From Methanoculleus caldifontis (GTDB lineage: Archaea; Halobacteriota; Methanomicrobia; Methanomicrobiales; Methanoculleaceae), in NCBI RefSeq assembly GCF_032842345.1, contig NZ_WBKO01000001.1:1302001-1366000 (forward strand): a stretch of DNA of 64,000 nucleotides, given 5' to 3'. Position 1 is the first letter of the stretch. Each line of letters begins with the position of its first letter. Below are positions 49,688 through 64,000 of the stretch, in pieces. The notes below the pieces were generated by a model. That model did not search any database. It saw only the letters and a program-made list of their open reading frames with translations, and was not told the DNA's origin. The position numbers and the translations under genes are program-made.

Positions 49688-50119
49688 TTACTGGGAGAAA
49701 GATGCCTTGAGGAGTTCGCCGCCGCGGGCGAGGATCTGCCGGACGGCGTCCTCGGCCTGGTCCACGCGCAGGATCAGGACCGCCCCGTCCCGGCCGGAGT
49801 AGGCGTAGGCATACTCGATGTTGATCCCGGCGTCCCCGAGGACCGACGCGATCTCCGAGAGGCCGCCGGGTTCGTCGCGCATCTTCACGCCGATGACGTC
49901 GGTGAACGAGACGCGGAAGCCGAGTTCGGTCAGCGTCCGGTGGGCGTCCTCCGGGCGGTCGACGAGCGCACGGACGACCCCGAACCCGTTTGCCTCGGCG
50001 ATACTGAACGCAAAGATGTTGATTCCCGCGTCCCGCAATGCGCCGGCGACTGCCGCGAGGCGCCCCGGCCGGTTCTCCGAAAAGATCGAGATCTGCTTGA
50101 CGATATACGATTTCTCCAT
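49688..50119 (-). CDS. Tandem ACT-domain protein
   Basis: 143 residues made of two ACT domains: FSENRPGRLAAVAGALRDAG (first) and DEPGGLSEIASVLGDAGINI (second). ACT pairs bind amino acids or similar ligands and regulate enzymes. It overlaps the start-proximal end of the adjacent CoA-ligase gene by one base; co-occurrence of such ACT proteins with arylacetate-CoA ligases suggests it senses an aromatic amino acid. Confidence 0.9.
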   Translation of the reverse strand: MEKSYIVKQISIFSENRPGRLAAVAGALRDAGINIFAFSIAEANGFGVVRALVDRPEDAHRTLTELGFRVSFTDVIGVKMRDEPGGLSEIASVLGDAGINIEYAYAYSGRDGAVLILRVDQAEDAVRQILARGGELLKASFSQ

Positions 50120-51420
50120 TATAACGACCTCCTGTCGACAACCTTCTTCGACTTGCCCTCAAACCGGGGCAGCGAGCCCGGTTCGACCAGTTCCGCATCC
50201 ACGCTCACGTTCAGGGAACTCCGGAGACGGTGCTCCACCGCCTTCTTGATCACCATGAGATCGGTGATCTTGTCGGAGAACGCCTCCTCGCTCACCTCGA
50301 CCCGCACGAGCATGGAGTCGAGCGCTCCCTTCCGGTCGACGACGATCTGGAAGTGCTTGCCGACCTGCGGGATCTCAAGGAGCGCGTGCTCCACCTGGGA
50401 GGGGAAGACGTTGATGCCCCTGATGATCAGCATATCGTCCACCCGCCCCCGTATCCGCCCGATACGCGGATGGGTCCGGCCGCAGGCGCAGACTCCTTCC
50501 TCGACTGCGGTGAGGTCGCCGATCCGGTACCGGACCATGGGGAGGGCCTCCTTCTGGAGCATGGTGATGGTCAGCTCGCCCTGCTCGCCGGCCTCCAGCA
50601 CCTCGCCGGTCGCGGGGTCCACAATCTCCACGAGCGCGAGGTCGCCCCAGACGTGGATCCCCTCCTGCTCGGCGCACTCGGTGAACATCGGGCCGGAGAG
50701 CTCGCTCGTCCCGTAGATGTCGTAGGCGCGGATCCCGAGCCACTCCTCGATCCGGCCCCGCATCTGCTCGGACCAGGGTTCGGCGCCGAGGAAGCCCATG
50801 CGAAGGTCGGTATCGTTCTTGATCGAGACGCCCATCTTCTCCGCCACCTCGCCCATGTGGAGGAGGTAGGAGGGGGTGCAGGCGATGGCCGTGACATGGA
50901 GGTCTTGCATCAGCTCGACCTGCCGCTCGGTGTTCCCGACGCTTGTGGGAAGAACGGTCGCCCCCACGCGCTCGGCGCCGTAATGGGCACCGAGGCCGCC
51001 GGTGAAGAGGCCGTAGCCGTAACTCACCTGGATGACGTCGCCCCGGCCGAGGCCGCAGGAGGAGAATCCCCGGGCCAGCGACTCGCTCCAGTTCTCGATG
51101 TCGCGCTCGGTGTAACCGACGACCGTCGGTTTCCCGGTCGTGCCGGAGGAGACGTGGTACCTGACCAGTTCGTTCCGCTCGGCGGTAAAGATCTTATCCG
51201 GGTAGCCGTCCCGCAGGTCCCGCTTGTACATGAACGGGAGTTTCGCGACGTCCTCAAGCGACCTGATATCGTCGGGATGGACGTTCGCCTCCTTCATCCG
51301 GCGCCGGTAGAACTCGTTGAAACTGTAGAGCCGGTAGACCAGGGACTTCGCGAGCTTGAACTGGAGCCGCCGGAGTTCGTCGGGCGGCATCTCCTCCGTC
51401 CGCGGGTTCCAGGGCGCCAT
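50119..51420 (-). CDS. Phenylacetate-CoA ligase family enzyme 2
   Basis: A 433-residue AMP-forming ligase. The P-loop SSGTTGKPTVVGYTERD and the adenylate motif YDIYGTSELSGPMFTECAEQ are complete, as is the hinge RGRVDDMLIIRGINVFPSQVE. Methanogens use such enzymes to activate arylacetates (phenylacetate, indoleacetate) so that indolepyruvate oxidoreductase can turn them into aromatic amino acids. It shares one base with paralogue 1 and one with the ACT gene. Confidence 0.92.
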   Translation of the reverse strand: MAPWNPRTEEMPPDELRRLQFKLAKSLVYRLYSFNEFYRRRMKEANVHPDDIRSLEDVAKLPFMYKRDLRDGYPDKIFTAERNELVRYHVSSGTTGKPTVVGYTERDIENWSESLARGFSSCGLGRGDVIQVSYGYGLFTGGLGAHYGAERVGATVLPTSVGNTERQVELMQDLHVTAIACTPSYLLHMGEVAEKMGVSIKNDTDLRMGFLGAEPWSEQMRGRIEEWLGIRAYDIYGTSELSGPMFTECAEQEGIHVWGDLALVEIVDPATGEVLEAGEQGELTITMLQKEALPMVRYRIGDLTAVEEGVCACGRTHPRIGRIRGRVDDMLIIRGINVFPSQVEHALLEIPQVGKHFQIVVDRKGALDSMLVRVEVSEEAFSDKITDLMVIKKAVEHRLRSSLNVSVDAELVEPGSLPRFEGKSKKVVDRRSL

Positions 51421-52709
51421 CAGATCGCCCCTCGCCGGTCGATGACCCGCTTTGCCTTCCCCTCGAACCGGGGCAGCGACCCGGGTTCCACCAGTCTCAC
51501 CGCGGTCCTGAGGCCGAGCGTGTTGTGGAGTTCGCCCCCGATCATCTTCTGCACGCGGGCGAGGTCCTGGAGTTCGCCGGAGAACCCCGCTCTGCTCATC
51601 TCTACCTCGATAGTCATCTCGTCAAGATGTTTGACGCGGTCGATATATACCATGAACTGTTCGCCGACCTCCGGAAGGGACCGGAGCACGTGCTCGATCT
51701 GCGATGGGAAGACGTTGATCCCCCGGATGACCAGCATATCGTCGCTGCGGCCCGTGATCCGCTCGATCTTCTGCCCGCGCCCGCAGGCACACCCGTCCTC
51801 GATCAGCCTGGTCACGTCGCCGGTGCGGTAGCGGACGAGCGGCAGGGCTTCCTTGACGAGCGGGGTGATGACGAGTTCGCCCCGTTCGCCGGGACCGAGC
51901 CGCTCGCCCGTCTCCGGGTCGATGATCTCTGTGAGGTAGCAGTCGTGCCAGATGTGGAGCCCGTTCCTCTCCGGGCACTCGAACGCCACTCCGGGGCCGT
52001 ACATCTCCGAGAGCCCGTAACTGTCGTAGGCCTTCACGCCGAGGCGCCGTTCGAGTTCGGTGCGCATGCTCTCCGACCAGGGTTCGGCCCCGAATATGCC
52101 GGTCTTGAGGGTGTCGAGCGTCTTTCCCATCGACTCGGCCACCTCGGCGAGGTGGAGGGCGTAACTCGGCGTGCAATGGATCGCGGTCACCCCGAAGTCC
52201 TCGATCATCTCGATCTGGCGGCGGGTGTTTCCCGTCGCGCTCGGGATCACGGTCATCCCGATCTTCTCGGCACCGTAGTGAAAGCCGAGGCCGCCGGTGA
52301 AGAGGCCGTAATTGACCGCGTTCTGGAAGATGTCGTCTTCGCCAAGACCTATCATCGACATGTTCCGCGCGATCAGTTCCGACCAGTTCTCCAGGTCCTG
52401 CCGCGTGTAGCCGACGACGGTTGGTTTCCCCGTCGTGCCGGAGGTGGTGTGGATCCGGACGATCTTTTGTAAGGGGACCGCAAAGAGGCCGAAGGGGTAT
52501 CCGGCCTGGAGCTCCTTCTTGGACGTGAAGGGAAGTTTCTCCACGTCTGCAAGCGTCCTGATGTCGTCCGGCGAGATGCCTGCTTCCTTGAATTTTTTCT
52601 GATATAACCCGACGTTCTCCGCCTGATGGAGCGTCCATCTCAGCCGCTTGAGCTGAAGGTCCGCGAGTTCATCCGGCCGGATTGTCTCCATCGCCCTGTT
52701 CCAGAACAT
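51420..52709 (-). CDS. Phenylacetate-CoA ligase family enzyme 1
   Basis: 429 residues from ATG 52709 (MFWNRAMETIRPDEL). TSGTTGKPTVVGYTRQDLEN, the KAYDSYGLSEMYGPGVAFEC adenylate motif and GRSDDMLVIRGINVFPSQIE are intact. It is a diverged paralogue of the next gene. Two linked ligases may have different aryl-acid preference. No strong ribosome site is visible; an in-frame GTG three codons upstream is an alternative start. Confidence 0.92.
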   Translation of the reverse strand: MFWNRAMETIRPDELADLQLKRLRWTLHQAENVGLYQKKFKEAGISPDDIRTLADVEKLPFTSKKELQAGYPFGLFAVPLQKIVRIHTTSGTTGKPTVVGYTRQDLENWSELIARNMSMIGLGEDDIFQNAVNYGLFTGGLGFHYGAEKIGMTVIPSATGNTRRQIEMIEDFGVTAIHCTPSYALHLAEVAESMGKTLDTLKTGIFGAEPWSESMRTELERRLGVKAYDSYGLSEMYGPGVAFECPERNGLHIWHDCYLTEIIDPETGERLGPGERGELVITPLVKEALPLVRYRTGDVTRLIEDGCACGRGQKIERITGRSDDMLVIRGINVFPSQIEHVLRSLPEVGEQFMVYIDRVKHLDEMTIEVEMSRAGFSGELQDLARVQKMIGGELHNTLGLRTAVRLVEPGSLPRFEGKAKRVIDRRGAI

Positions 52710-52815
52710 AATCGTAACCCGTTGGTGATTGCCCGGCGATGGCCCGCTGACCCCGGAACCCGCGCCGCCGGGCATGTGCTACCTCTACATGGGCGCCGGT
52801 GCCAAAAAAGGTTTG

Positions 52816-53853
52816 TCAGTCTGTGGCATGGTACGCTGTAGCAGCACCCGCCCCGGTCTCCATCGGCCGGGGCCATCCGGTGCCCCCTTCGCGGAACGCG
52901 TCCAGGGCGAACTCCATGAAGATCCGTGCCTCATCCGGGTGCGGGGCAGTCGCGGGGATGGTGACGGCATAGACGATCGGCTGGCCGACCCGCTCGCTCC
53001 CGATGGACCGGAACCGCTCAAAGCCGAGGGTCACGTGCACCTTCCGGTAGTCATCGGCATGTGCCGCGGAACCGAGGTTGATCCCGGCCGGGAGGTCGAT
53101 CCACCGGAGTCCGTGCTCCTCGGCGACGCTCTTATACTCGAAGGCGTAGTCGATCCCGCCGGAATCGAGGAGCGAGAGGAGGTAGATGCTCCCGTCCCTG
53201 ATGGCGACCTTCCCGTCCGCCGGCCTCATCCGTTCCGGCAGGGCGAGCGTCGTCATCCCGTCCACGCGGGCGGGCGTGAGCGGCGGGTCGAACGAGTTGC
53301 CGATGATGGCCCTGAAGAGCCCGGGCTCATCGTAATACTCCTCCGCAAGCGCCGTCACCATGAGCGCCCGGTAGCCGCAGGCATCGAGCATGGGGTTCGA
53401 GAACCCCACCCGCACGTCCGGGCGGGAGAGGACCCGGTGCCAGTTCTCCGGCGTGATCTCGTCGGCTCCCGCGCTCCGGCCGGTGCAGGCGATCACGATC
53501 TCGTTCTCCGCGAAGGGGATGTACCAGTCGGTGTAGTTTCCCTCACCGTCGCCCATCGGGATATACATCATATCCGGGATGAGCGAGGCGTCCGCGACCG
53601 CGACGACGTCTATCGGCCGCTTTAGATCCGTGACCTGCCTGATCGCCTGGATGCTCCCGTGCCCCTCGAGCCGCACGTCGATATCCGGGTGCCGGTCTTC
53701 GAAGGCAGCTTCAATCTCCTCAAGCGGGGAGAGGAGGCTCCCGGCCGGGACCACCGTGAGGACGGTGCGCTCCTGGCCGGTCCCGGTGCAGCCTGCGGAT
53801 ACCATGAGGACGGTGAGGGCGAGAGCCGTGAGGAGTGCTGCCGGCCGGGTCAT
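52816..53853 (-). CDS. wtpA: WtpA-type tungstate/molybdate-binding lipoprotein
   Basis: 345 residues from ATG 53853, overlapping the gene before it by four bases. A lipobox (LMVSAGC, Cys about 22) anchors it outside the cell membrane. The mature part matches the periplasmic-binding fold of WtpA/ModA: VPAGSLLSPLEEIEAAFEDR, DVVAVADASLIPDMMYIP and GFSNPMLDACGYRALMVTAL. It would capture tungstate or molybdate for an ABC importer. No permease or ATPase gene is adjacent on this side. It ends the seven-gene surface operon. Confidence 0.9.
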   Translation of the reverse strand: MTRPAALLTALALTVLMVSAGCTGTGQERTVLTVVPAGSLLSPLEEIEAAFEDRHPDIDVRLEGHGSIQAIRQVTDLKRPIDVVAVADASLIPDMMYIPMGDGEGNYTDWYIPFAENEIVIACTGRSAGADEITPENWHRVLSRPDVRVGFSNPMLDACGYRALMVTALAEEYYDEPGLFRAIIGNSFDPPLTPARVDGMTTLALPERMRPADGKVAIRDGSIYLLSLLDSGGIDYAFEYKSVAEEHGLRWIDLPAGINLGSAAHADDYRKVHVTLGFERFRSIGSERVGQPIVYAVTIPATAPHPDEARIFMEFALDAFREGGTGWPRPMETGAGAATAYHATD

Positions 53854-54419
53854 CCTCTGCGGACCTCGACCCGGTCGACCCACTTCACCCAGGGGCTTCC
53901 TTCGGTGATGACATCGGGCGTCTCTGTGATGACGACGAGGCGGAGCGGTCCGCCGTCTTCATAGGCCAGGGGCATTCCATCCCGTTCGTAGGCCAGGATC
54001 ACCCGGAGCGCCGGAGCCGGGATCTCATGCAGATTCTCGTCGAACGTGAAGAACTCCTCGCCTCGCAACTGCGTGGTATCGAAGACCCAGAGGTAGCCGT
54101 CTTCTGCGGAGACATAGATCAGGTCGTCTTCACCGATCCCTCCCGCCATCTCGACGAGATCGGTGAGTAATACACCGCGGTAGCGGTTCGGGCCGTACTT
54201 GATCCCGACCGTCGAGACCGAGTAACCGTAGCCCTCAACGTCAGGCAGCGCCTGGATCCCGGAATGCGTGAGCACCTGCTCCGTATCGCCGGCAAGCGTC
54301 AGGTTCCAGGCTACGTCGCCGGCGGCGGCTGCCGGACCGGGGCACCCGGATGCAAGGGTCGCACCGCCGATGAGCACCAGGGCAAGGAGAATTGGGGGCG
54401 TCCGGTGCACCGGGCTCAC
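53850..54419 (-). CDS. Secreted sulfite-oxidase-fold-like protein, small
   Basis: 189 residues. A lipoprotein-like signal (LIGGATLASGC) precedes one domain resembling the molybdopterin-binding oxidoreductase fold: GVLLTDLVEMAGG, VSAEDGYLWVFD, LAYERDGMPLAYEDGGPLRL and WVKWVDRVEV. The Cys that holds molybdenum in active enzymes is missing (the region reads GYGYSVSTVGIKYG), so catalysis is unlikely. It overlaps both neighbours by four bases. Perhaps a binding module. Confidence 0.7.
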   Translation of the reverse strand: MSPVHRTPPILLALVLIGGATLASGCPGPAAAAGDVAWNLTLAGDTEQVLTHSGIQALPDVEGYGYSVSTVGIKYGPNRYRGVLLTDLVEMAGGIGEDDLIYVSAEDGYLWVFDTTQLRGEEFFTFDENLHEIPAPALRVILAYERDGMPLAYEDGGPLRLVVITETPDVITEGSPWVKWVDRVEVRRG

Positions 54420-55243
54420 GCTCCTCTCCGGGCATGGAGCGCTGCTGCCCCGAGGGCTGCCGCAAGCGTCATTGCAAGAGAGAGCGGGGTTTCCGGCGCC
54501 TCCGTCGTCCTCGACACCGGACCGTCGAGCGATCCCGCGAGGGCTCCTTTCTCACCGTGGTATCCGCCGGAATAAACCCGGACCTCGTCGATCCACTTCA
54601 CCGTGAGGCCCCCGGTCGAGGGGTAGAGGTCGTAGAAATGCTGGGCAGACTCGGGGAGCGTGTCATACATATCCTGATTCCCGTAGACGTGGAGCCCCTC
54701 CGTATTGGTCGAGTTATCGGCAAAGAATACCAGGCGCATCCCGGTATAGTAATCCGGGACGTAACCGCATCCCTGCCGCTCGCCTGCCCCTGCTTCGTCG
54801 CCGTTGTACCAGCAGATCCCGATGGGTCCCTGGCGGGGATCGGGTTCGTAAACATTCTGATAAGCAAACTCGACGTGATAACCGTCGGCCGCTCTGACCA
54901 TGATCTCGTCGCCGGGTTCGGCGCCGCCGACCAGTTCGGCGAGGTCGCGGATGTTCGTGCCTTTCACGGCCCCCCTGTCCTTGAAGTTCGTCGTCTCTTC
55001 AGGGTCCCACTTGTCTCCTTCAAAGACCGGCCCCTGGTGGTAGTAGTGGGTCACGCCGTCCCCGAGGACCGGGAGGTTTGCCTCCAGCCAGCGGTAGTCG
55101 ACGGTCGTCTCGTTCAAGACGGTGGCGCCGTCGGCTGCAATCTTTACGACGTGCAGCTCTGTCGTCGGGGCCGCCGAGGCGGCAACGGCGAAGACGCTCA
55201 CGCAGAGGAGCGCGAGCAGCATCTGTGACAATTGTATACGCAT
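54416..55243 (-). CDS. Secreted sulfite-oxidase-fold-like surface protein
   Basis: 275 residues from ATG 55243, chosen because GGAG lies 8 bases upstream (a nearer ATG 55252 would have no spacing). Signal peptide to about 25, then a domain also found in the PEGA protein and in module D of the 1180-residue protein: VKGTNIRDLAELVGG, VRAADGYHVEFAYQNVYEPD, DEVRVYSGGYHG. A hydrophobic C-terminus (SLAMTLAAALGAAALHARRGA) looks like an archaeal surface-sorting anchor. No cofactor Cys seen. Confidence 0.75.
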   Translation of the reverse strand: MRIQLSQMLLALLCVSVFAVAASAAPTTELHVVKIAADGATVLNETTVDYRWLEANLPVLGDGVTHYYHQGPVFEGDKWDPEETTNFKDRGAVKGTNIRDLAELVGGAEPGDEIMVRAADGYHVEFAYQNVYEPDPRQGPIGICWYNGDEAGAGERQGCGYVPDYYTGMRLVFFADNSTNTEGLHVYGNQDMYDTLPESAQHFYDLYPSTGGLTVKWIDEVRVYSGGYHGEKGALAGSLDGPVSRTTEAPETPLSLAMTLAAALGAAALHARRGA

Positions 55244-55248
55244 GATCT

Positions 55249-56439
55249 TCATCTCCGTAATCTGTGTAGTTCTGATGAGTCGAGGAGAGATCCCGGCACG
55301 TCCCACCACGCGGGGGCCGCGTGGAGGCGGACGGCGTCGATCACGGTCCCTGGCGGGTACGGCGTCACTTCGCCGTCTTCCGTGACTCCCGCGACCGCGA
55401 CCATCTCGAGAGTGACGACGTCGGGGCTGACGGTGGCCCGGACGTAGCCGAGGGTCTGTTCGAGTCCCGCCCGGTACCCCGTGGGCTTCTCCTCTGAGAG
55501 GGCGTAGAACGGAGCCCCGCCGCATCCGACGACGATGTACTCCGTCCCGTTGATCCTGTAGCGCTCGTAGGCGTGGGTATGCGCGCTAAAGACGGCGTCT
55601 ACACCACTCCCGGACAGGATGCCGCACCACTCGGCCCTGAGCGCCAGGTCTCCTCCGGGATGCTGCCGGTCGGCGCTGAACGGCGGGTGGTGGAACGCTA
55701 CGAGCTTGTGGGGCAGGGGCGACAAGAGGTCCTCTTTCAGCCACGCGGTCTGCGAGTCCATATCCGCCCATGCGCGGTCGTTGCTGTCAAGGACAGTTAC
55801 GTGGAGGCTGCCGGCGTCAAAGGAGTAGTTGGCCGGGAGGCCAAAAGTGGCGGCGAACGCCTCCGCGGATCCGTCATGGTTGCCGGCCACCGGCACGAGG
55901 GTCGTGTTCCGGAGCATGGACCCTGCTACCGCGAAGAATTCATCCCACTCCTCTTCTTCGCAGACGAAGTCGCCGGTGTGGATGACAAAGAGGATATTCT
56001 CCTCAGCGGCTATCCTCTCCGCCACCAGGCCGTGCCGGTCGGCCTGGGTGAAGAAGGGCTTCTGCGCCCGGGTGTCGCCGTAGACTATGCAGGTGAACGC
56101 CTCGTCACCGAATGTCCGGAACCTGCAGCCCTCTATCGCCTCATTCCCGGCGCCGATCCGGTAACGGTAGGTGGTCGCCGGCGCGAGGCCTGTGAGCAGG
56201 ACCTGGTGCACGGCCCCCTCCCCGGAAGAGGGTATGTGGTATACCTCACCGCCCTCGGGGGCGTACTCGACCCAGCACTCCTCCGCCGGCGAGGCGGTCT
56301 TCCAGGTGATCGCCGCTGAGTTCTCGGTGGTGGTTGTGACGTACGGCCCCCAGACGACGGCGGCCATTGCCGCCGGGAGGAGGAGTGCGAGCAGCGCGGC
56401 TGCCGCTACAATCCTCCGGGCGTTCCGGTATCGGCTCAT
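55249..56439 (-). CDS. Secreted purple-acid-phosphatase-like metallophosphoesterase
   Basis: 396 residues from ATG 56439 with a signal peptide (to about 26) and an FN3-type beta domain (27-115; GLAPATTYRYRIGAGNEAIE). The calcineurin-like phosphoesterase core has all metal motifs: YGDTRA, HTGDFVC, GNHDGS, FHHPP and SAHTHAYER. It probably removes phosphate from extracellular esters. It overlaps the PEGA gene by four bases and precedes a surface-protein gene by 5 bases. Confidence 0.92.
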   Translation of the reverse strand: MSRYRNARRIVAAAALLALLLPAAMAAVVWGPYVTTTTENSAAITWKTASPAEECWVEYAPEGGEVYHIPSSGEGAVHQVLLTGLAPATTYRYRIGAGNEAIEGCRFRTFGDEAFTCIVYGDTRAQKPFFTQADRHGLVAERIAAEENILFVIHTGDFVCEEEEWDEFFAVAGSMLRNTTLVPVAGNHDGSAEAFAATFGLPANYSFDAGSLHVTVLDSNDRAWADMDSQTAWLKEDLLSPLPHKLVAFHHPPFSADRQHPGGDLALRAEWCGILSGSGVDAVFSAHTHAYERYRINGTEYIVVGCGGAPFYALSEEKPTGYRAGLEQTLGYVRATVSPDVVTLEMVAVAGVTEDGEVTPYPPGTVIDAVRLHAAPAWWDVPGSLLDSSELHRLRR

Positions 56440-58973
56440 GGCGCCCCCTCCTTCAGGGCCACCATGCACCGTGTCGTCTCTCCCGGTCTCACCAGCATGT
56501 CTTCGACCGTCCGGGAGTCGTTCTCCGAGACGGCCCTGACCTCGTAGGTGCCGATGCTCATGCCGGGGAAGGTGTGGGGCGCTTTCTCTCCGGTGTACCG
56601 GCCGTAGAGGTAGATCTTCGCGTCCGGAACCGTACTCTCGATGCGGAGATCCCCGTGGGTATACTCCCGGAGCGTGCAGGTTATCGTGCCGCCGTTGCCG
56701 GAGGACCCTTCCGGTATCGTGATCACCTCTTCGGCGGGGAGGTACCCGGGCATCGAGACCAGGATCCGGTGCCGGCCGGGAGAGAGGCCTCCAACCCGGC
56801 ACGGGGTCCGCTCGCCGGTAGGGAACCCGTCGACGAAGACCGGGGCGCCGGCGGGGTCTGAGCCGATGCCGACCGAGACGGTCTCCCCGCTCCAGGGCTT
56901 GATGAAGTATGTCCCATTGGCCGCGATACTGGAGGGAACGGCGAACGAGAGATACTTCCCGTCCCGGAGGACGGTGATCCAGGGTTTCATGCCCTCCACC
57001 GTGGCATCGCCGGGGATGGTGCCGGCCGGGAAGAGTCCGTTCACCGTGAACTGCTCCCCGGCATAGGCCTCCGAGTCGACCCGGATCGTCTTCCTGATCG
57101 TGGCGGTGACGCCGTCCAGGAAGACCGGAGCGATCGCGTCCGGATAGACCCAGGCCTGAACCGTCTCGAACTGGTAATCGGAGTCCTTCCGGCTGCTGCC
57201 CGGATCGCTCTTCTCGACCGTGACGCTGTGAAGCCCTTCGCGGAGGCCGTAAACGACGTGGGGCGTCTGCCACACCAGTCTCTTGTTGTCGACGACGATC
57301 GTCATGCCCGGTGGGTAGGATTCTATGTGAAGCCCCCCCGATTGGTTCTTCACGGACCGGGTATCGGCTGGCGTCGGCGTGGAGGGCACAGGGGTGTCGG
57401 TCGGCACGGGGGGTATAGCGCCTTCGTCGGGAGCCGGTGCGCTCTCCTGCTCCGGAGCGGGGGCCGGCAGGCTCTCTCCCATCCCCAGGAATGAGAGGAG
57501 CCCGTTCATGAGACTGAACACCGCCGCAATGAGGGCCTCCAGGGAGTTGTTCGACGCCGGGTGTCCGGTTGCGGACGTATCAGGGCCTGCGGTGGCGTTT
57601 GCTCCGGCCGTACTGCCTGCCGGGGAGAGGAGCAGGTCGAGGGTGATAGACCTGCTCTCCTCGACGGTGACCGTCCGGGCGGCATTCAGGTAGCCCGGCA
57701 TCACGAGTTCGATTGTATGCTCGCCGACCGGGACATCCAGGGTCGTGTTGGTCCAGAGCCCCGTAGCGTATCCGTCAAGGATGATGCTCGCGTTCGTCGG
57801 GACCGAGAAGACGACGATCTGCCCGGTCCCGCCGGTAGTCTCACCTGCGGTGCTGTTCTCGGGAGAGAGCACCAGATCGACGATACTGTAATCGTCCTTC
57901 TCGACGGTGACGGTCCGGGTGGCATTCCGGTAGCCCGGCATCACGAGTTCGACTGTATGCTCCCCGGTCGGAACCTCTTTCAGGGCCGTATCGGTCCGGA
58001 ACCCCGTCATATTCCCATCGAGGTAGATGCTCGCGTTCGTCGGGACGGAGGAGACGGCGATGCTCCCGGTCTCTGGAGTGAGGTTGAACTCAACTTCCGC
58101 GACGGTGTTTGCTTTTACGTTGACCCATACATCGCCGGGCTGGCCGAATCCCTCTTTCTCGACCCGGATGCTGTGGCCCCCTGTCTCGATCCCGGAGAGA
58201 GTGCAGGGGGTCACGCTGCCGGTCTCTTCGTCGTCGATGTAGACGGCGGCGCCGGGGGGTGCGGACGTTACAAGGATACTCCCGGTGGGCTCTTCCTCGC
58301 TGTAGATGATAATCTCAGTCACGTACTGTACCGAAAGGCCGGTGGTGGTCGGTACGTTGGGCTGGAAGAAGTACCAGTATTCGGGATCGAAGCACTCGTG
58401 CATGTCCCAGACACCGAAGGCATGGGTGCCGTTCGGGTTGGTCGACGTATCCGCAAAGAAGACGAGGCGCATCCCGGTGTAGTACTCGGGAACATACCCT
58501 TCGTCGGCCTTATACCAGGTGACGACGATCGGCCCCTGCCGGGGCTCCGGCTCGTAGACGTTCCTGTAGGGGAAGATCTTCGACATCCCATCCGCCGCCC
58601 GGACCTTGACGGTCTCTCCCCCGGCCATTCCGCCGACGAGGTCACAGAGGTCGGCAAGGTCCGTCCCCTTCACCGCGCCCATATCCTTACTCTGGACATT
58701 GGTGTCTTCTCCGGGGTTCCAGGGGTCCCCTGTAAAAACCGGTCCCTGGTGATAGTAGTGGGTCACGCCATCTCCCTGGACCGGGAGGTTTGCCTCCATC
58801 CGGCGGTAGTCGACGGTCGTCTCGTTCAAGACGGTGACGCCGTCGGCTGCGAGTTTCACGATATGCAACTCAGTCGTCGGGGCGGCGGCGGCCGGCACCG
58901 CCATTGTGAGGCAGATGCAGGCTGCAATGATGGCGGGATAGAGAACGCAGCCCTGCCAGTGCGCTGGTAACAT
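56436..58973 (-). CDS. Large secreted PEGA-repeat protein with N-terminal sulfite-oxidase-fold-like domain
   Basis: 845 residues. After the signal peptide, residues 30-250 repeat the domain of the 54.4-kb protein (VKGTDLADLCDLVGG, VRAADGMSKIFPYRNVYEPE). Six PEGA-type modules follow at about 252-320, 322-390, 400-465, 560-620, 715-775 and 780-845, e.g. VSSVPTNASIYLDGNMTG and GEHTVELVMPGY. Pro-rich linkers separate modules 3-4. PEGA domains are surface beta-sandwiches of unknown ligand. GAGGAG 8-13 bases upstream supports ATG 58973. No membrane anchor at the C-terminus. Confidence 0.85.
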   Translation of the reverse strand: MLPAHWQGCVLYPAIIAACICLTMAVPAAAAPTTELHIVKLAADGVTVLNETTVDYRRMEANLPVQGDGVTHYYHQGPVFTGDPWNPGEDTNVQSKDMGAVKGTDLADLCDLVGGMAGGETVKVRAADGMSKIFPYRNVYEPEPRQGPIVVTWYKADEGYVPEYYTGMRLVFFADTSTNPNGTHAFGVWDMHECFDPEYWYFFQPNVPTTTGLSVQYVTEIIIYSEEEPTGSILVTSAPPGAAVYIDDEETGSVTPCTLSGIETGGHSIRVEKEGFGQPGDVWVNVKANTVAEVEFNLTPETGSIAVSSVPTNASIYLDGNMTGFRTDTALKEVPTGEHTVELVMPGYRNATRTVTVEKDDYSIVDLVLSPENSTAGETTGGTGQIVVFSVPTNASIILDGYATGLWTNTTLDVPVGEHTIELVMPGYLNAARTVTVEESRSITLDLLLSPAGSTAGANATAGPDTSATGHPASNNSLEALIAAVFSLMNGLLSFLGMGESLPAPAPEQESAPAPDEGAIPPVPTDTPVPSTPTPADTRSVKNQSGGLHIESYPPGMTIVVDNKRLVWQTPHVVYGLREGLHSVTVEKSDPGSSRKDSDYQFETVQAWVYPDAIAPVFLDGVTATIRKTIRVDSEAYAGEQFTVNGLFPAGTIPGDATVEGMKPWITVLRDGKYLSFAVPSSIAANGTYFIKPWSGETVSVGIGSDPAGAPVFVDGFPTGERTPCRVGGLSPGRHRILVSMPGYLPAEEVITIPEGSSGNGGTITCTLREYTHGDLRIESTVPDAKIYLYGRYTGEKAPHTFPGMSIGTYEVRAVSENDSRTVEDMLVRPGETTRCMVALKEGAP

Positions 58974-59003
58974 TCACTGCTCCTCGGTGATTACGAAAAA
59001 TGG

Positions 59004-60089
59004 TTACTTCTTCCTCAGAACGAGGAAGGCTGCAACCGTGGCTATCAGCACGACTACGAGAGCTGGCACCCAGAGCGGGAGCACGGGTCCGGGCTCCCCG
59101 GCCGGCTCTCCGACCGGAGTCCTGGTTCCCTCCGCTCCCGCGGCCACGGCCGTGGTAGCCGGGACGGTCCACGCCAGGGCGTAGATGCTGAAGTGATCGA
59201 CCTCTGCAGTGACCGTCCGGGTAGCGGGGTCCATTGTGGCGGCGATCTCCTGCCATCCCCCTGTCTGTAGGTTGTACCACATCACCTTCGGCGTCGCACC
59301 TTCACCGATTCTCGCCCACTCTTCCGCGGAGAGAGTGTAGGTGAGGACGGCCGGCGGGTCGAAGGTGGCGCCCGCGGGGCCGCATGAGAGCGCGATGGCA
59401 ACCGTCGTTCCCGGCGGTGCCGGTGGGACCTCGGCCGGAGCGACCTCGCTGCAGGTCACCTCGCCGAGCGGGTTGCCGTTTCCGTCCAGGGCAGTGGTGC
59501 CCTCCGGAATCGTCACGGCTCCGGTCTCGTCATCGGTTCTGACCGTCACCGGTGTGAGCACCACGCCGGCCGCTGATGTGGTGAGGGACGCGCGTTCGGT
59601 GGACACTATGGGTGCGACAGGAGCGTTGGGGTCGTAGGTCAACTGCGATCCGGGGCTCGTGGAAGAGCCGCCGCTCCCGCTACCGCCGCCGTTACCGGGC
59701 GTGGGTGTGGGGGTGCTCTCCCCGGCCGTTGCGGTCAGGTCAAGAGCCGTAAACGCTCCGGACGTAAAGGTCGCGGTCTCCTGTGCGGCCACGCCGTTGA
59801 CGTAGAACGTGATCGTCGCTCCCGCCCGGTCCGCGGTCGCCGTCACGTCCAGGCGGCTCCCGAGACTCTCGTCGGGGCTACCGTACCGTCCGGCCTCTAT
59901 CATCTGAACCGAACCGCATCCGACCCCCGCGATCTTCGCGGTGATCACGGTCCCGGCCGGTGCGGGAGATCCGCCGATCGTCACGCTCCCGTAGAACTCA
60001 TGAGGCAAAACGGGGGTTGTATCCCCGGCCCCCGCCGCACTGGCGACGAGGCCGAGGATGAGGATCAGCACGGCGCCATACCGCATCAT
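59004..60089 (-). CDS. Membrane-anchored surface protein
   Basis: 361 residues from ATG 60089 (AAGGTGA upstream). Signal peptide to about 21; a beta domain at 25-125 (LPHEFYGSVTIGGSPAPAGT, TITFYVNGVAAQETATF) of a type common in methanogen surface proteins; a Gly/Ser/Thr-Pro linker; a second beta domain (PKVMWYNLQTGGWQEIAATM, AEVDHFSIYALA); and a C-terminal membrane helix (LPLWVPALVVVLIATVAAFL) with RKK end. It could anchor the neighbouring secreted proteins. Function unknown. Confidence 0.82.
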   Translation of the reverse strand: MMRYGAVLILILGLVASAAGAGDTTPVLPHEFYGSVTIGGSPAPAGTVITAKIAGVGCGSVQMIEAGRYGSPDESLGSRLDVTATADRAGATITFYVNGVAAQETATFTSGAFTALDLTATAGESTPTPTPGNGGGSGSGGSSTSPGSQLTYDPNAPVAPIVSTERASLTTSAAGVVLTPVTVRTDDETGAVTIPEGTTALDGNGNPLGEVTCSEVAPAEVPPAPPGTTVAIALSCGPAGATFDPPAVLTYTLSAEEWARIGEGATPKVMWYNLQTGGWQEIAATMDPATRTVTAEVDHFSIYALAWTVPATTAVAAGAEGTRTPVGEPAGEPGPVLPLWVPALVVVLIATVAAFLVLRKK

Positions 60090-60102
60090 CGCCTGTTCAC
60101 CT

Positions 60103-63100
60103 TCAGGCGCCGATGGCAGCAAGCGTGTCTGCCCCGGTCGTGTAGATCCAGTAGCCCTGCGTCGGCTCCATCGTGCGCTCCTCGCCGTGACGCCCGCTGG
60201 CGCCGCGGATGATCGAGACCTCATACTCCTGGGCCCCCGCGTCGAACCCGATCAGGGTCGTCCAGTGGTTGCCGAGCGAGAGCAGGGTGTTTACCGCAGA
60301 CTCAGGAACGGTATCCGAGAAACCGATCGCGTTCCAGCCTTTGCCAAGATTTTTCATGGGCGGGAGACCCGGTTCACCGGAGGCGAAGGTCAGGGAGACC
60401 GTGCAGGCCTCGTTTGAGTAGACCCAGACGCCGTCGAGCGGCCGGAACGAGTCGGTCGAGGCCACCGGTTTCCACTTCTGCTCCAGGCCGTCATAGAACT
60501 GGATCGAGTGGCCTGCAGTATCAACGATATCGAAGAAGACGGCGAACGTGTTGCTGCCGTCGGCAAGCTGCTTCGGGGTCGAGACGAAGTTCCAGCCCGC
60601 TTCAAGGGAGATCGTCGTGTCGCCCGTGGGCGGCTCCACGACAATCGGCACACCAGTGAGGACGATCTCGTCGATGCTCCCGATCCTCTGCTTGTTGGAG
60701 GTCAGGGCGGTGCCGACGAGTTTCAGCGGCCAGGTCTTGCCGTCGCTCGGGAGCGGCGCGCCGTCGATCTCATCCGCGACGATGATGTTGTTGTTCCGTG
60801 CGACGAATGAGCTGTTGAAGACGGCGGAGAAGTCGTCGTCGGTGCCTTTCGTGCCGTCCGGACCGTAGTCGATGACGGTGATGTTGTAGCCTGCGGCCGC
60901 GAGGTCGTCGCGGAAGGGGTCCGTTCCCGCGCTGTGCTTGTTGCCGTCGTCGACCCAGCCGCAGAGGAGCCAGAGCGGCATCCCCGACCAGACCTGTCCT
61001 CCGTCATCGGTCCAGGTCGCGCTGTGCATGCCCATGGCGCAGGCCTTGCCCGACTCGAAGTAGGACCGACCGATGGTGTCGGTGATCGCGCCCGTCAGGA
61101 CGAGGTTCCAGTTCTCCCGTGCACCCGGTTTGATCTTGATGGTCGCGATGTTCCTGTTGGAGACTCCCGCGGCCGAGGGGTACTGGATGCCGCCGGCCCA
61201 GTAGTAGTGCCAGTAATCTTCTTTGAGGCACGTTCCCATGTCTTCGGCACCGAAGATGCCGTCGGGCGTGTTGAAGAAGAGGCGCGGTCCGTCACGATAG
61301 TTGGGCGCGTAGCCCTGCCGCTCTGTCCACCAGGCGACGATAGCCTCGCCCTGCCGGTCGAGCGGAGTATAGAGGTTGGTGTAGTTCAGTTTGGCCCCGT
61401 AACCGTCGGATGCGACGAGTTCTACCTCGCCTCCTTCCGGAACACCGCCTACGAGATCGCAGAGGTCCCGGATAGAGGTCCCTTTCACAACCTCGTCGAC
61501 CTTGCCCGGGTTGATGTCCTCAGCTGGGTTCCAGAGGTCGTTCGGGTCGAAGGTGGGTCCCTGGAACCTGAGCCGGATACCGTCCGGGGCTCCGTAGACA
61601 TCCAGGTTCTCTTCCATCCACGTGATGGTCTTCGTCGTCTCCTCGACGACGGTCACGCCGTCGGAGGCATATCGAACGATGCGGATCGACGGGGCTTCCG
61701 TCGGCTCCTGGAAGTCGACGAGCTGGATCTTCTGGACGTTCCCGATGCTCTTGCTCCCGGCAGCCCCCTCGCCGACGAGGCGGAGCGGGTAGGCGCTCCC
61801 GTCGATACGCGTACCGTTGACCTTGCTTGCGACGATGTAGTTTAAGGGGCTCGCCATGATCTCCTGGCTGGTGAACTCCTTGCTGTAGGGGTTCTCCCCG
61901 CCGGAGGAGACGATCACCGTGTAGCCTGCCTGGGCCAGGGCGGTGTTGAATGCTCCCGAGCCGTGCATGACGTCGTCGTCGACCCAGCCGCAGAGGACCT
62001 TCAACGGGACGCCGGTCCAGATACTGACCCCGTCGTTATACTCCTTCGTGTGGTAGCCGCACTCCTCGAACTCTTCCTTCGTGAGGAGATCGCTGATCTG
62101 CGGTCCCTCGACCGCGAGCGTCCACTCAGATTCGGTGCTCTCGCCCGGCAGCCCCTCGAGGGTGATCGACGCGATGCTGCCGATCCGCTGCTTGTTGGAG
62201 GTCAGGGCGGAGCCGACGAGTTTCAGCGGCGCACCGTTATCCGCGCCGAGCGGTGCGGCGTTCATCTTGTCCGCAACAAGGAAGGTGTCGTTCCGGGCGA
62301 TATCAGCGCTGCTGAACGTGGCGGAAAAGCCGTCGCTCGCGGTCACCCGCACGGTGTAGCCCTCGGCCGCCTGCGCGTCATTCAGCGTCCAGTGGCTGCC
62401 GGTCTCCATATTGTCGACGACGGCCACCAGGTACCAGAGCGGTATGCCGGTCCAGACCTGCAGGCTCTCGTCGGTGTAACTCTCGCCGTGGCATTTGACT
62501 CCGTCCTCGAACTCCGCCTGCGAGAGCGTCCGGTTGAACGCGCCCGCGAGCGTGATCTCCCACTCACCGGAGGGTTCGGGGAGGCCGACGAGTTCGATCG
62601 CGGCGATGCCGCCGATCTTCTGGCCGGCGCTCACGTCGGGGCCGATGAGCTGGAGCGGCCAGCAGGGTTTTGCCTTCTCGCCGATGGTCTCGGGGAGCCC
62701 GGTGCCGTTGAGAGTATTCGCGACGATGATCCCGCTGTTCTTTGCGACGCTTGCACTCTCGAAGTTGATCGCGTACCCGTCGTCCGCGATGACCTTGATC
62801 GAGTAGCCCTGCGCGGCGAGTTCTTCATTGAACGCGCCGGATCCGTGCTTCAGACCGTCGTCGACGAGGCCGACGAGGTACCAGAGGGGCATGCCGCTCC
62901 ATATGGCTCCGTTCTCATCGGTGTAGGTGGCGACGTGCCCGCAGGCGATCCCGTCCTCGAAGTAGTCCTGGTCGACGGTCTCGGTCGACGCACCCTTGAG
63001 CGTGAGGCTCCAGCCCGACGGCGTGGGAGTTGGGGTCGGCGTCACCGAGCTGTCCAGGTCCGCTTCGATCCGGATCAGCACAGTGGCCGTCTCCGGCGTC

Positions 63101-63645
63101 GTGTCGACACCGTAACAGAAGACGACCACATCGCCGTCGGCAAGCGCTACGGCGTTGAGGGCGTCAGCAGAACTGCTGTAACCGTCCTTCTCGACGCCGT
63201 TGACGTAGCAGGCCCACCCGGCGCCGCCTTTCACGAACGCGTATTCCCCGATGTTGTCGAGCAGGAGGACTTCGTTGCTGCCTTCCACCCACTTCTTGTC
63301 GGTGACATCGTACGTGAAGCCCGTGCGCCCGGCTACTGCCTGGAGAGCTCCGAGCGGCGTCCGGTTATCAACCGTATAAGACACTCCGGAGTTGTAGGCC
63401 GTACATTCAAACGCGCCTGCCTCCAGTGCAACCGGCCCGTTGAAGAGCACTACAGGGTCATCAGCCAGGGCTCCGGCAGATCCTGTGTCTGATGTCTCCT
63501 CAGCGACGAACGTATCCTTCACGGCGCTCTCCGGCAGGCTCACACCTGCGTCGTCGAGTGCCTCTGCTGCTGCCGGTGTTGCCAGCAGCAGGCAGGCCAT
63601 CAGCACGATTGCAACGTACTGAATCTTTTTTCTCGAGAATTCCAT
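60103..63645 (-). CDS. Giant surface protein with five sulfite-oxidase-fold-like modules
   Basis: 1180 residues, first gene of the surface operon. Signal peptide 1-28; DUF4430-like domain about 88-178 (TPLGALQAVAGRTGFTYDV); Thr-Pro linker about 202-209. Modules A 211-356, B 360-500, C 507-646 and E 845-1000 share a pattern: Cys (235, 385, 529, 869), then 13-17 residues later W-(S/T)-G-(M/I/V)-P-L. This is the order of the metal-binding Cys and W-x-G-x-P-L in sulfite-oxidase/MsrP-type enzymes. Module D (652-840) lacks it and resembles the 54.4- and 56.4-kb proteins. A beta-rich domain (1008-1180) ends it. The Sec-type signal argues against export with a bound pterin. Confidence 0.85.
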   Translation of the reverse strand: MEFSRKKIQYVAIVLMACLLLATPAAAEALDDAGVSLPESAVKDTFVAEETSDTGSAGALADDPVVLFNGPVALEAGAFECTAYNSGVSYTVDNRTPLGALQAVAGRTGFTYDVTDKKWVEGSNEVLLLDNIGEYAFVKGGAGWACYVNGVEKDGYSSSADALNAVALADGDVVVFCYGVDTTPETATVLIRIEADLDSSVTPTPTPTPSGWSLTLKGASTETVDQDYFEDGIACGHVATYTDENGAIWSGMPLWYLVGLVDDGLKHGSGAFNEELAAQGYSIKVIADDGYAINFESASVAKNSGIIVANTLNGTGLPETIGEKAKPCWPLQLIGPDVSAGQKIGGIAAIELVGLPEPSGEWEITLAGAFNRTLSQAEFEDGVKCHGESYTDESLQVWTGIPLWYLVAVVDNMETGSHWTLNDAQAAEGYTVRVTASDGFSATFSSADIARNDTFLVADKMNAAPLGADNGAPLKLVGSALTSNKQRIGSIASITLEGLPGESTESEWTLAVEGPQISDLLTKEEFEECGYHTKEYNDGVSIWTGVPLKVLCGWVDDDVMHGSGAFNTALAQAGYTVIVSSGGENPYSKEFTSQEIMASPLNYIVASKVNGTRIDGSAYPLRLVGEGAAGSKSIGNVQKIQLVDFQEPTEAPSIRIVRYASDGVTVVEETTKTITWMEENLDVYGAPDGIRLRFQGPTFDPNDLWNPAEDINPGKVDEVVKGTSIRDLCDLVGGVPEGGEVELVASDGYGAKLNYTNLYTPLDRQGEAIVAWWTERQGYAPNYRDGPRLFFNTPDGIFGAEDMGTCLKEDYWHYYWAGGIQYPSAAGVSNRNIATIKIKPGARENWNLVLTGAITDTIGRSYFESGKACAMGMHSATWTDDGGQVWSGMPLWLLCGWVDDGNKHSAGTDPFRDDLAAAGYNITVIDYGPDGTKGTDDDFSAVFNSSFVARNNNIIVADEIDGAPLPSDGKTWPLKLVGTALTSNKQRIGSIDEIVLTGVPIVVEPPTGDTTISLEAGWNFVSTPKQLADGSNTFAVFFDIVDTAGHSIQFYDGLEQKWKPVASTDSFRPLDGVWVYSNEACTVSLTFASGEPGLPPMKNLGKGWNAIGFSDTVPESAVNTLLSLGNHWTTLIGFDAGAQEYEVSIIRGASGRHGEERTMEPTQGYWIYTTGADTLAAIGA

Positions 63646-63699
63646 ACAATCACCAGATTTCGTTCATACTCTTTCCCAGCAGCCCGCTGGTTAAGCGAC

Positions 63700-63708
63700 A
63701 GTTTAAAT
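63700..63708 (-). promoter_or_regulatory. TATA-like box of the surface operon
   Basis: On the minus strand ATTTAAACT lies 55 bases before the start of the 1180-residue protein, implying initiation near 63677. It is the best TATA candidate next to the operon. Confidence 0.45.
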
Positions 63709-63753
63709 CTGGGTTACGGCTATGGAAAAAATTTTCATTTAATTAATCTATTT

Positions 63754-63766
63754 GATTAAGTTAATC
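63754..63766. promoter_or_regulatory. GATTAA-G-TTAATC palindrome upstream of the surface operon
   Basis: A perfect 6+1+6 palindrome in a strongly AT-rich block (63723-63770) between the surface operon and the divergent gene. It lies upstream of the TATA candidate, so an activator or a divergent-gene operator is possible. Chance occurrence in AT-rich DNA cannot be excluded. Confidence 0.3.
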
Positions 63767-63885
63767 TCGTTGATATGGGGGGTCCGGCCCGACCGTCGTT
63801 CCATGCTCCGGGGATCGGGCAGTATCTCGGCAAATCGATGCATTAATCACCAAAAACCGCAAAATATTCACTTCCAGAGGATCTG

Positions 63886-64000
63886 ATGAGAGCGACGGAA
63901 TCCTGGCTCCCCGTCATCGGCTACGGGGGGCATATCAAGGCTACGACGCAGGACCTGGTCATCGCGTTCGGGAGCGAGACCCGGCGCTACCCGCTCCTGG
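63886..64000 (+). CDS. N-terminus of a possible Cas1-like protein (cut by window end)
   Basis: 38 codons from ATG 63886 with AGAGG five bases ahead. The text WLPVIGYGGHIKATTQDLVI followed by GSETRRYPL resembles the N-terminal beta domain of Cas1 (a GYG-x-I-x3-LVI-x-YPL pattern). No CRISPR array is seen in the window, so if correct it could be a stand-alone Cas1. The fragment is too short for certainty. Confidence 0.35.
   Translation, partial: MRATESWLPVIGYGGHIKATTQDLVIAFGSETRRYPLL

Follow-up and report, generated by a model that had tools for sequence, protein, structure and literature searches.

A Methanoculleus surface operon joining PruR-like modules to a distinct WtpA lipoprotein as a proposed tungsten or molybdenum acquisition apparatus

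CO2 reduction in hydrogenotrophic methanogens needs tungsten or molybdenum, and to our knowledge only plain oxyanion ABC importers have been described for these metals in such organisms. WtpA/ModA proteins bind tungstate or molybdate, and the described systems closest to the locus reported here are WtpABC (Pyrococcus furiosus WtpA, Archaeoglobus ModA/WtpA), TupABC, the sulfite oxidase (SUOX) family of enzymes (sulfite oxidase, SoxCD, SorA/SorT and MsrP/YedY; PF00174), and PruR, whose partners are DcpA or sensor kinases. We know of no SUOX modules in the TupABC systems described so far. PruR is a periplasmic SUOX-fold protein that has no Mo-ligating Cys and binds pterins without Mo (PMC13259868); its pterin contacts are Tyr104 and Trp160.

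The DNA analysed here, called the window, is a 64,000-nucleotide stretch of the 2.6 Mb genome of Methanoculleus caldifontis (contig NZ_WBKO01000001.1, positions 1,302,001 to 1,366,000). Open reading frames and their translations showed seven head-to-tail genes, g1 to g7, on the minus strand at 52816-63645. As a sequence-only reading of this DNA had described, they are separated by short gaps or overlaps: 13 bases between g1 and g2, 30 bases between g2 and g3, and four overlaps of exactly 4 bases each from g3 to g7, and such spacing suggests that all seven are carried on one transcript. Inspection by eye gives each product a signal peptide or a lipobox at its start; g6 and g7 are lipoproteins, and g5 and g2 end in a C-terminal membrane helix. 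SUOX-fold modules were found in four genes, g1, g3, g5 and g6, while domain searches and translations confirmed the membrane-anchored protein (g2), the secreted phosphoesterase (g4) and WtpA (g7) named in that reading as the other products.

The largest product, g1 (60103..63645), is a secreted protein of 1180 aa (PF00174, Oxidored_molyb, 5e-15), in which a DUF4430-like N-terminal region is followed by four type-1 and one g5-type SUOX-fold modules and a C-terminal surface domain. The DUF4430-like region (approximately 63076..63423) was assigned by sequence resemblance, as the Pfam match is seen in orthologues only; in one g1 orthologue (L037) DUF4430 exceeds its own cut-off at 6e-6. The type-1 modules M1 (62575..63012), M2 (62137..62562) and M3 (61711..62124) were delimited by Pfam, module boundaries and profile comparison, and M5 (60637..61110) by module boundaries and profile comparison. 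M4 (61126..61689) resembles g5 in sequence and is one of three g5-type matches in this genome, all of which lie within the operon or its coordinates. The next gene, g2 (59004..60089), encodes a secreted protein of 361 aa with a C-terminal membrane anchor; it is present in several relatives, and a Pfam search of it gave no family above its own cut-off. The product of g3 (56436..58973; 845 aa) carries a g5-type module at its N-terminus (approximately 58275..58877, from the translation and a g5-type match), followed by six PEGA domains (PEGA 3.5e-75).

The remaining four genes are shorter. g4 (55249..56439), overlapping g3, encodes a secreted metallophosphoesterase of 396 aa of the purple acid phosphatase type (PF00149, Metallophos, 2.4e-13; PF16656, 2.2e-11), with a purple-acid-phosphatase N domain and GD, GNHD and HTH motifs in its translation. 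g5 (54416..55252), overlapping g4, is a secreted g5-type module of 278 aa with its membrane helix at residues 257-277. g6 (53850..54419), overlapping g5, is a 189-aa lipoprotein consisting of a single SUOX/PruR-fold module without the Mo-ligating Cys (PF00174, 1e-10); its lipobox GC is invariant among 31 orthologues. g7 (52816..53853), overlapping g6, is a WtpA-type tungstate/molybdate-binding lipoprotein of 345 aa, assigned to class A as described below. The phenylacetate-CoA-ligase-like genes downstream (49688-52775) were considered as operon members and rejected; since they are found after g7 only in close relatives, we regard them as a separate unit.

The resemblance of these modules to the sulfite-oxidase fold, proposed from the letters alone, was borne out by both profile and structure comparison. 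Against canonical SUOX proteins, profile comparison gave E values of 4.7e-17 for g6, 3.7e-14 for the type-1 modules of g1 and 1.8e-5 for the g5-type module, which Pfam missed and which is related to g6 at E 2.9e-11. There are thus two module types, type 1 with four copies in g1, and the g5-type in g5, at the g3 N-terminus and once in g1. AlphaFold (AF2) models of g6 (pLDDT 87.5) and g5 (pLDDT 72.6) were compared with the PDB by Foldseek. The top match of g6 was PruR (7kom, 2.7e-7), followed by SoxCD, SorA, sulfite oxidase and YedY; the top match of g5 was also PruR (7kom, 6.9e-4; 7rkb, 4e-3), with YedY-type entries next. The A1 profile matched 7kom weakly (E 0.047). PDB phmmer matches of g6 to the designed Cake/Bagel propellers were dismissed as repeat artefacts. 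Like PruR (7kom, 7kp2, 7kos, 7rkb), g6 and g5 are exported SUOX-fold proteins without a Mo-ligating Cys. Unlike PruR, the g5, g6 and g1 forms are archaeal and are lipoproteins, membrane-anchored or multi-module, and pterin binding is putative here.

With the SUOX enzymes the modules share the domain superfamily, by profile and by structure, but the Mo ligand is missing from g5 and g6, no Tat export is available, and surface scaffolds carry the modules in repeated copies. Where the enzymes have their Mo-ligating Cys, g6 has Ser67 in the alignment, with S, A or G in 27 of 31 orthologues; g5 has no Cys there either. TatC was over its cut-off in 0/90 genomes of the order, whereas 11/14 control genomes were positive. 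It is therefore probable that the modules are exported unfolded and without cofactor. As Sec exports proteins in the unfolded state, they should reach the surface empty and gain any ligand outside. Together with the missing TatC, the lack of a Mo ligand in both g5 and g6 speaks for binding proteins rather than exported molybdoenzymes. One option raised by the sequence-only reading was an extracellular redox system, with the SUOX modules acting as molybdo- or tungstoenzymes outside the cell. The fold itself would suit this, as would the Cys and His present in 80% and 85% of 177 g1 type-1 modules, in the loop that bears the Mo ligand in SUOX enzymes, and the four g6 orthologues that do have Cys at the aligned position. 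However, the g1 Cys is not clearly placed on the Mo ligand by profile alignment, the operon has no haem or electron-carrier gene, a folded, cofactor-loaded protein would have no TatC to export it, and the closest structure, PruR, is a non-enzyme pterin binder. That suggestion was not supported, and we consider such a redox role very unlikely. One genome from which TatC is absent also has a SUOX protein that contains Cys and begins with a Sec-type signal (L171, G000:C3:140391-140819).

g6 is highly conserved, with DGY, W, K and E as invariant positions of polar and aromatic type; the conserved DGY and VKW of both g6 and g5 are candidates for the Tyr and Trp that contact pterin in PruR. The modules might instead be structural or adhesive surface domains, which hold an ordinary tungstate-binding lipoprotein in place or present it at the surface, and bind neither pterin nor metal. 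PEGA and other surface scaffolds do accompany them, several relatives also have g5-type modules in giant surface proteins that are not linked to the operon, and the type-1 modules of g1 are without the C-terminal KW motif found in g5 and g6. Yet the invariant residues of g6 are those expected of a binding site, the top structural match is a ligand-binding protein and the pairing with WtpA is obligate, so that we regard a purely structural role as unlikely, if still a serious alternative. Another explanation is pterin sensing in the manner of PruR-DcpA, regulating surface behaviour instead of uptake. PruR is the closest structure and, in Proteobacteria, senses pterins in the periplasm (PMC13259868). 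However, Pfam and NCBIfam searches of the seven genes found no DcpA or DTB regulator domain, no GGDEF/EAL gene and no histidine kinase gene in the operon, and its constant partners are W/Mo transport proteins. Sensing in place of uptake is thus highly improbable in our estimate.

The last gene is a WtpA lipoprotein, as had been proposed: g7 scored 323.8 bits against TIGR03730 (7e-97), above the curated cut-off of 242.75, and its PDB relatives are 3cfz, 3k6u and 3cij. In a tree, g7 falls in its own WtpA clade, class A, apart from canonical WtpA, including the canonical copy of the same genome, with support 100/99. Asp160 is a W ligand of P. furiosus WtpA (PMC10221389), and its equivalent in g7, D157, is kept in 84/84 class-A proteins. 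At the position inferred for the WtpA W ligand Glu218, class A and most canonical WtpA of the order have Ser; a second carboxylate, E239, is kept in 80/84 class-A proteins, is conserved too in the canonical WtpA of the order, and may substitute for Glu218 in W binding. Compared with WtpABC, g7 is thus alike in exceeding the WtpA cut-off, in being a lipoprotein, in the retained Asp ligand and in having WtpB/WtpC after it in relatives; it differs in forming a separate clade with the class-specific residue H65, in its tie to surface modules and in having no adjacent permease in this genome. Here wtpB and wtpC are absent beside g7 in the window and are present at the separate canonical wtpABC locus, and the genome has a tupABC elsewhere too.

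The operon was then compared across the order Methanomicrobiales, a check for which the sequence-only reading had called. Class-A WtpA and g6 were both present in the same 39/90 genomes and both missing from 51/90, a count that includes one class-A copy split into two frames. These genomes are related, so that a Fisher test of the pairing makes them look more independent than they are; nevertheless, presence and absence alternate across six families. At the 55 loci with enough flank, g6 was found beside g7 in 55/55, g5 in 53/55, g3 in 53/55, g4 in 34/55 and g1 in 33/55. These figures define g5-g6-g7 as the core, to which g3 is usually added, and make g1, g2 and g4 accessory; from their counts, neither the phosphoesterase nor g1 is essential. 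Gene order and co-occurrence are conserved in six families of the order, far beyond chance. A chance neighbourhood, with wtpA merely lying beside unrelated surface genes, might be argued from the downstream phenylacetate-CoA-ligase-like genes, which show that some neighbours are lineage-specific. It is refuted at the genomic level by the 39/39 co-occurrence, the 55/55 adjacency, the six families and the genomes outside the order, which leaves it a negligible probability.

Some minor observations were made during this comparison. One class-A wtpA (L055 5125-6127) is read in two frames, through a frameshift or a sequencing error, and the g5 and g6 of its cluster are open. Three genomes without the operon contain 75-codon frames 51-55% identical to the g7 C-terminus (G088:C106:13954-14172, G072:C80:13854-14027 and G058:C2:204778-204945), which are possible remnants of a lost g7 copy. 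Operon genes at about 75% identity also occur on a contig labelled Clostridiaceae (L069), and this label is most likely a binning error.

The neighbours of the cluster strengthen its link to W/Mo transport. Methanoregulaceae, Methanocalculus and other groups have WtpB and WtpC genes directly after g7 and on its strand (loci with WtpB and WtpC after g7 include L038, L044, L045, L046 and L056), these genes face g7 in Methanocorpusculum, and several genomes have a canonical wtpABC next door; the WtpB/WtpC neighbours score below the NCBIfam equivalog cut-offs. As for TupABC, whose solute-binding family differs from that of g7, TupA genes lie beside the cluster in some relatives, and directly upstream of it Methanolinea has TupA genes and a TupA-WtpA fusion (L088, L099). 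With the 39/39 co-occurrence, these neighbours bear out the W/Mo link that the first reading had proposed. Outside the order, one genome (L142) has g1, g3, g4, g5, g6, g7, WtpB and WtpC in one region on a single strand, and three further loci (L141, L143, L144) have parts of the set. In two genomes from another family (L146 3720-13379, L147 5012-12654), SUOX-like lipoproteins are found with an ECF importer and with a PF01663 phosphodiesterase/nucleotide pyrophosphatase. The importer's S component (PF09819) has an apparent SUOX-type C-terminal tail, and in L146 a TupA gene is also near. SUOX-like modules, a phosphoesterase and an importer thus recur together with another transporter class. Separately, the TupA-WtpA protein of Methanolinea is a natural fusion of 649 aa (L099 6052-8001; also L046 and L105), and in a Methanospirillum cluster (L111) wtpB and wtpC precede g5-g6-g7, with an FdhD-like gene nearby (1085-1834).

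Inheritance as a unit and the frequent tungstate importer neighbour make an outer W/Mo-collecting apparatus probable, and the modules are probably of binding type, with a constant WtpA partner that keeps D157 and E239. We therefore propose, with a probability of about 0.6, that the products of the operon form an apparatus on the cell surface by which tungsten (or molybdenum) is acquired. The lipoprotein g6 and the membrane-anchored g5 would serve as PruR-like, Cys-less SUOX-fold binding domains at the membrane, while PEGA and other surface scaffolds in g3 and g1 would hold further copies of the fold out from the cell. Having left through Sec without cofactor, the modules would bind an extracellular ligand and concentrate it at the surface; because PruR is the best structural match, we propose a pterin-like molecule or a W/Mo-pterin as the most likely ligand. 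Where present, g4 may take phosphate off the ligand. WtpA (g7) would then take the oxyanion to the WtpB/WtpC permease. Many relatives encode this permease in the immediate neighbourhood, and the genome studied here would presumably use that of the distant canonical wtpABC locus; the order of the steps in this scheme is a suggestion. The tungsten link is well supported by genomics, and the ligand is what we infer.

A more specific version is possible but tentative: in Methanomicrobiales and some related archaea, PruR-like surface arrays may trap tungsto- or molybdopterin from outside the cell, or a secreted pterin that chelates tungsten, and the metal may be stripped for WtpA, making a pterin-based metallophore or a cofactor-recycling route. 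The passing of cofactor from one organism to another has a precedent in C. elegans, which gets Moco from bacterial food (PMC9793310). MoaA was found in 87/90 and MoaC in 86/90 genomes of the order, unrelated to operon presence. Since almost every genome has both, whether or not it carries the operon, Moco auxotrophy was rejected, and the operon is not compensating for lost molybdopterin synthesis. Simple salvage of the whole cofactor is disfavoured by this and by the PruR site, reported as too small for Moco (PMC13259868). Metal-pterin scavenging with phosphate release, as raised by the sequence-only reading, may still take place; the phosphoesterase is present at 34/55 loci, and these genomes synthesise molybdopterin themselves.

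A search of open-access papers gave no description of such a system, and one portion of a recent PruR review shows archaeal SUOX-like proteins in a similarity network and describes no transport role there. The parts belong to known families; what is probably new is their assembly, in which a W/Mo ABC uptake system is joined by a surface apparatus. If true, this would offer a testable answer to how methanogens gather scarce W/Mo and give PruR-like proteins a transport role in archaea. It would also account for many surface proteins of archaea that currently bear the annotation molybdopterin oxidoreductase.

As for regulation, an Rfam search of 50000-64000 gave no riboswitch match, and a scan for bacterial-type promoters and terminators was uninformative. 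A candidate operator, ATTAACTTAA, lies on the minus strand at 63756..63765, about 110 bases upstream of g1, and is suggestive only. The pattern RTTAACTTAA has 6 sites in the 2.6 Mb genome (control, 0), three of which precede this operon, wtpABC and tupABC; the motif was found from two of these three, which leaves the tupABC site as independent. Relatives keep the exact decamer upstream of g1 but not of wtpA or tupA, which makes it a lead and no evidence of a regulon. Divergent from g1, a Cas1 gene starts at 63886 and continues past the window end (L052 1887-2819), and an acylphosphatase gene lies beyond it.
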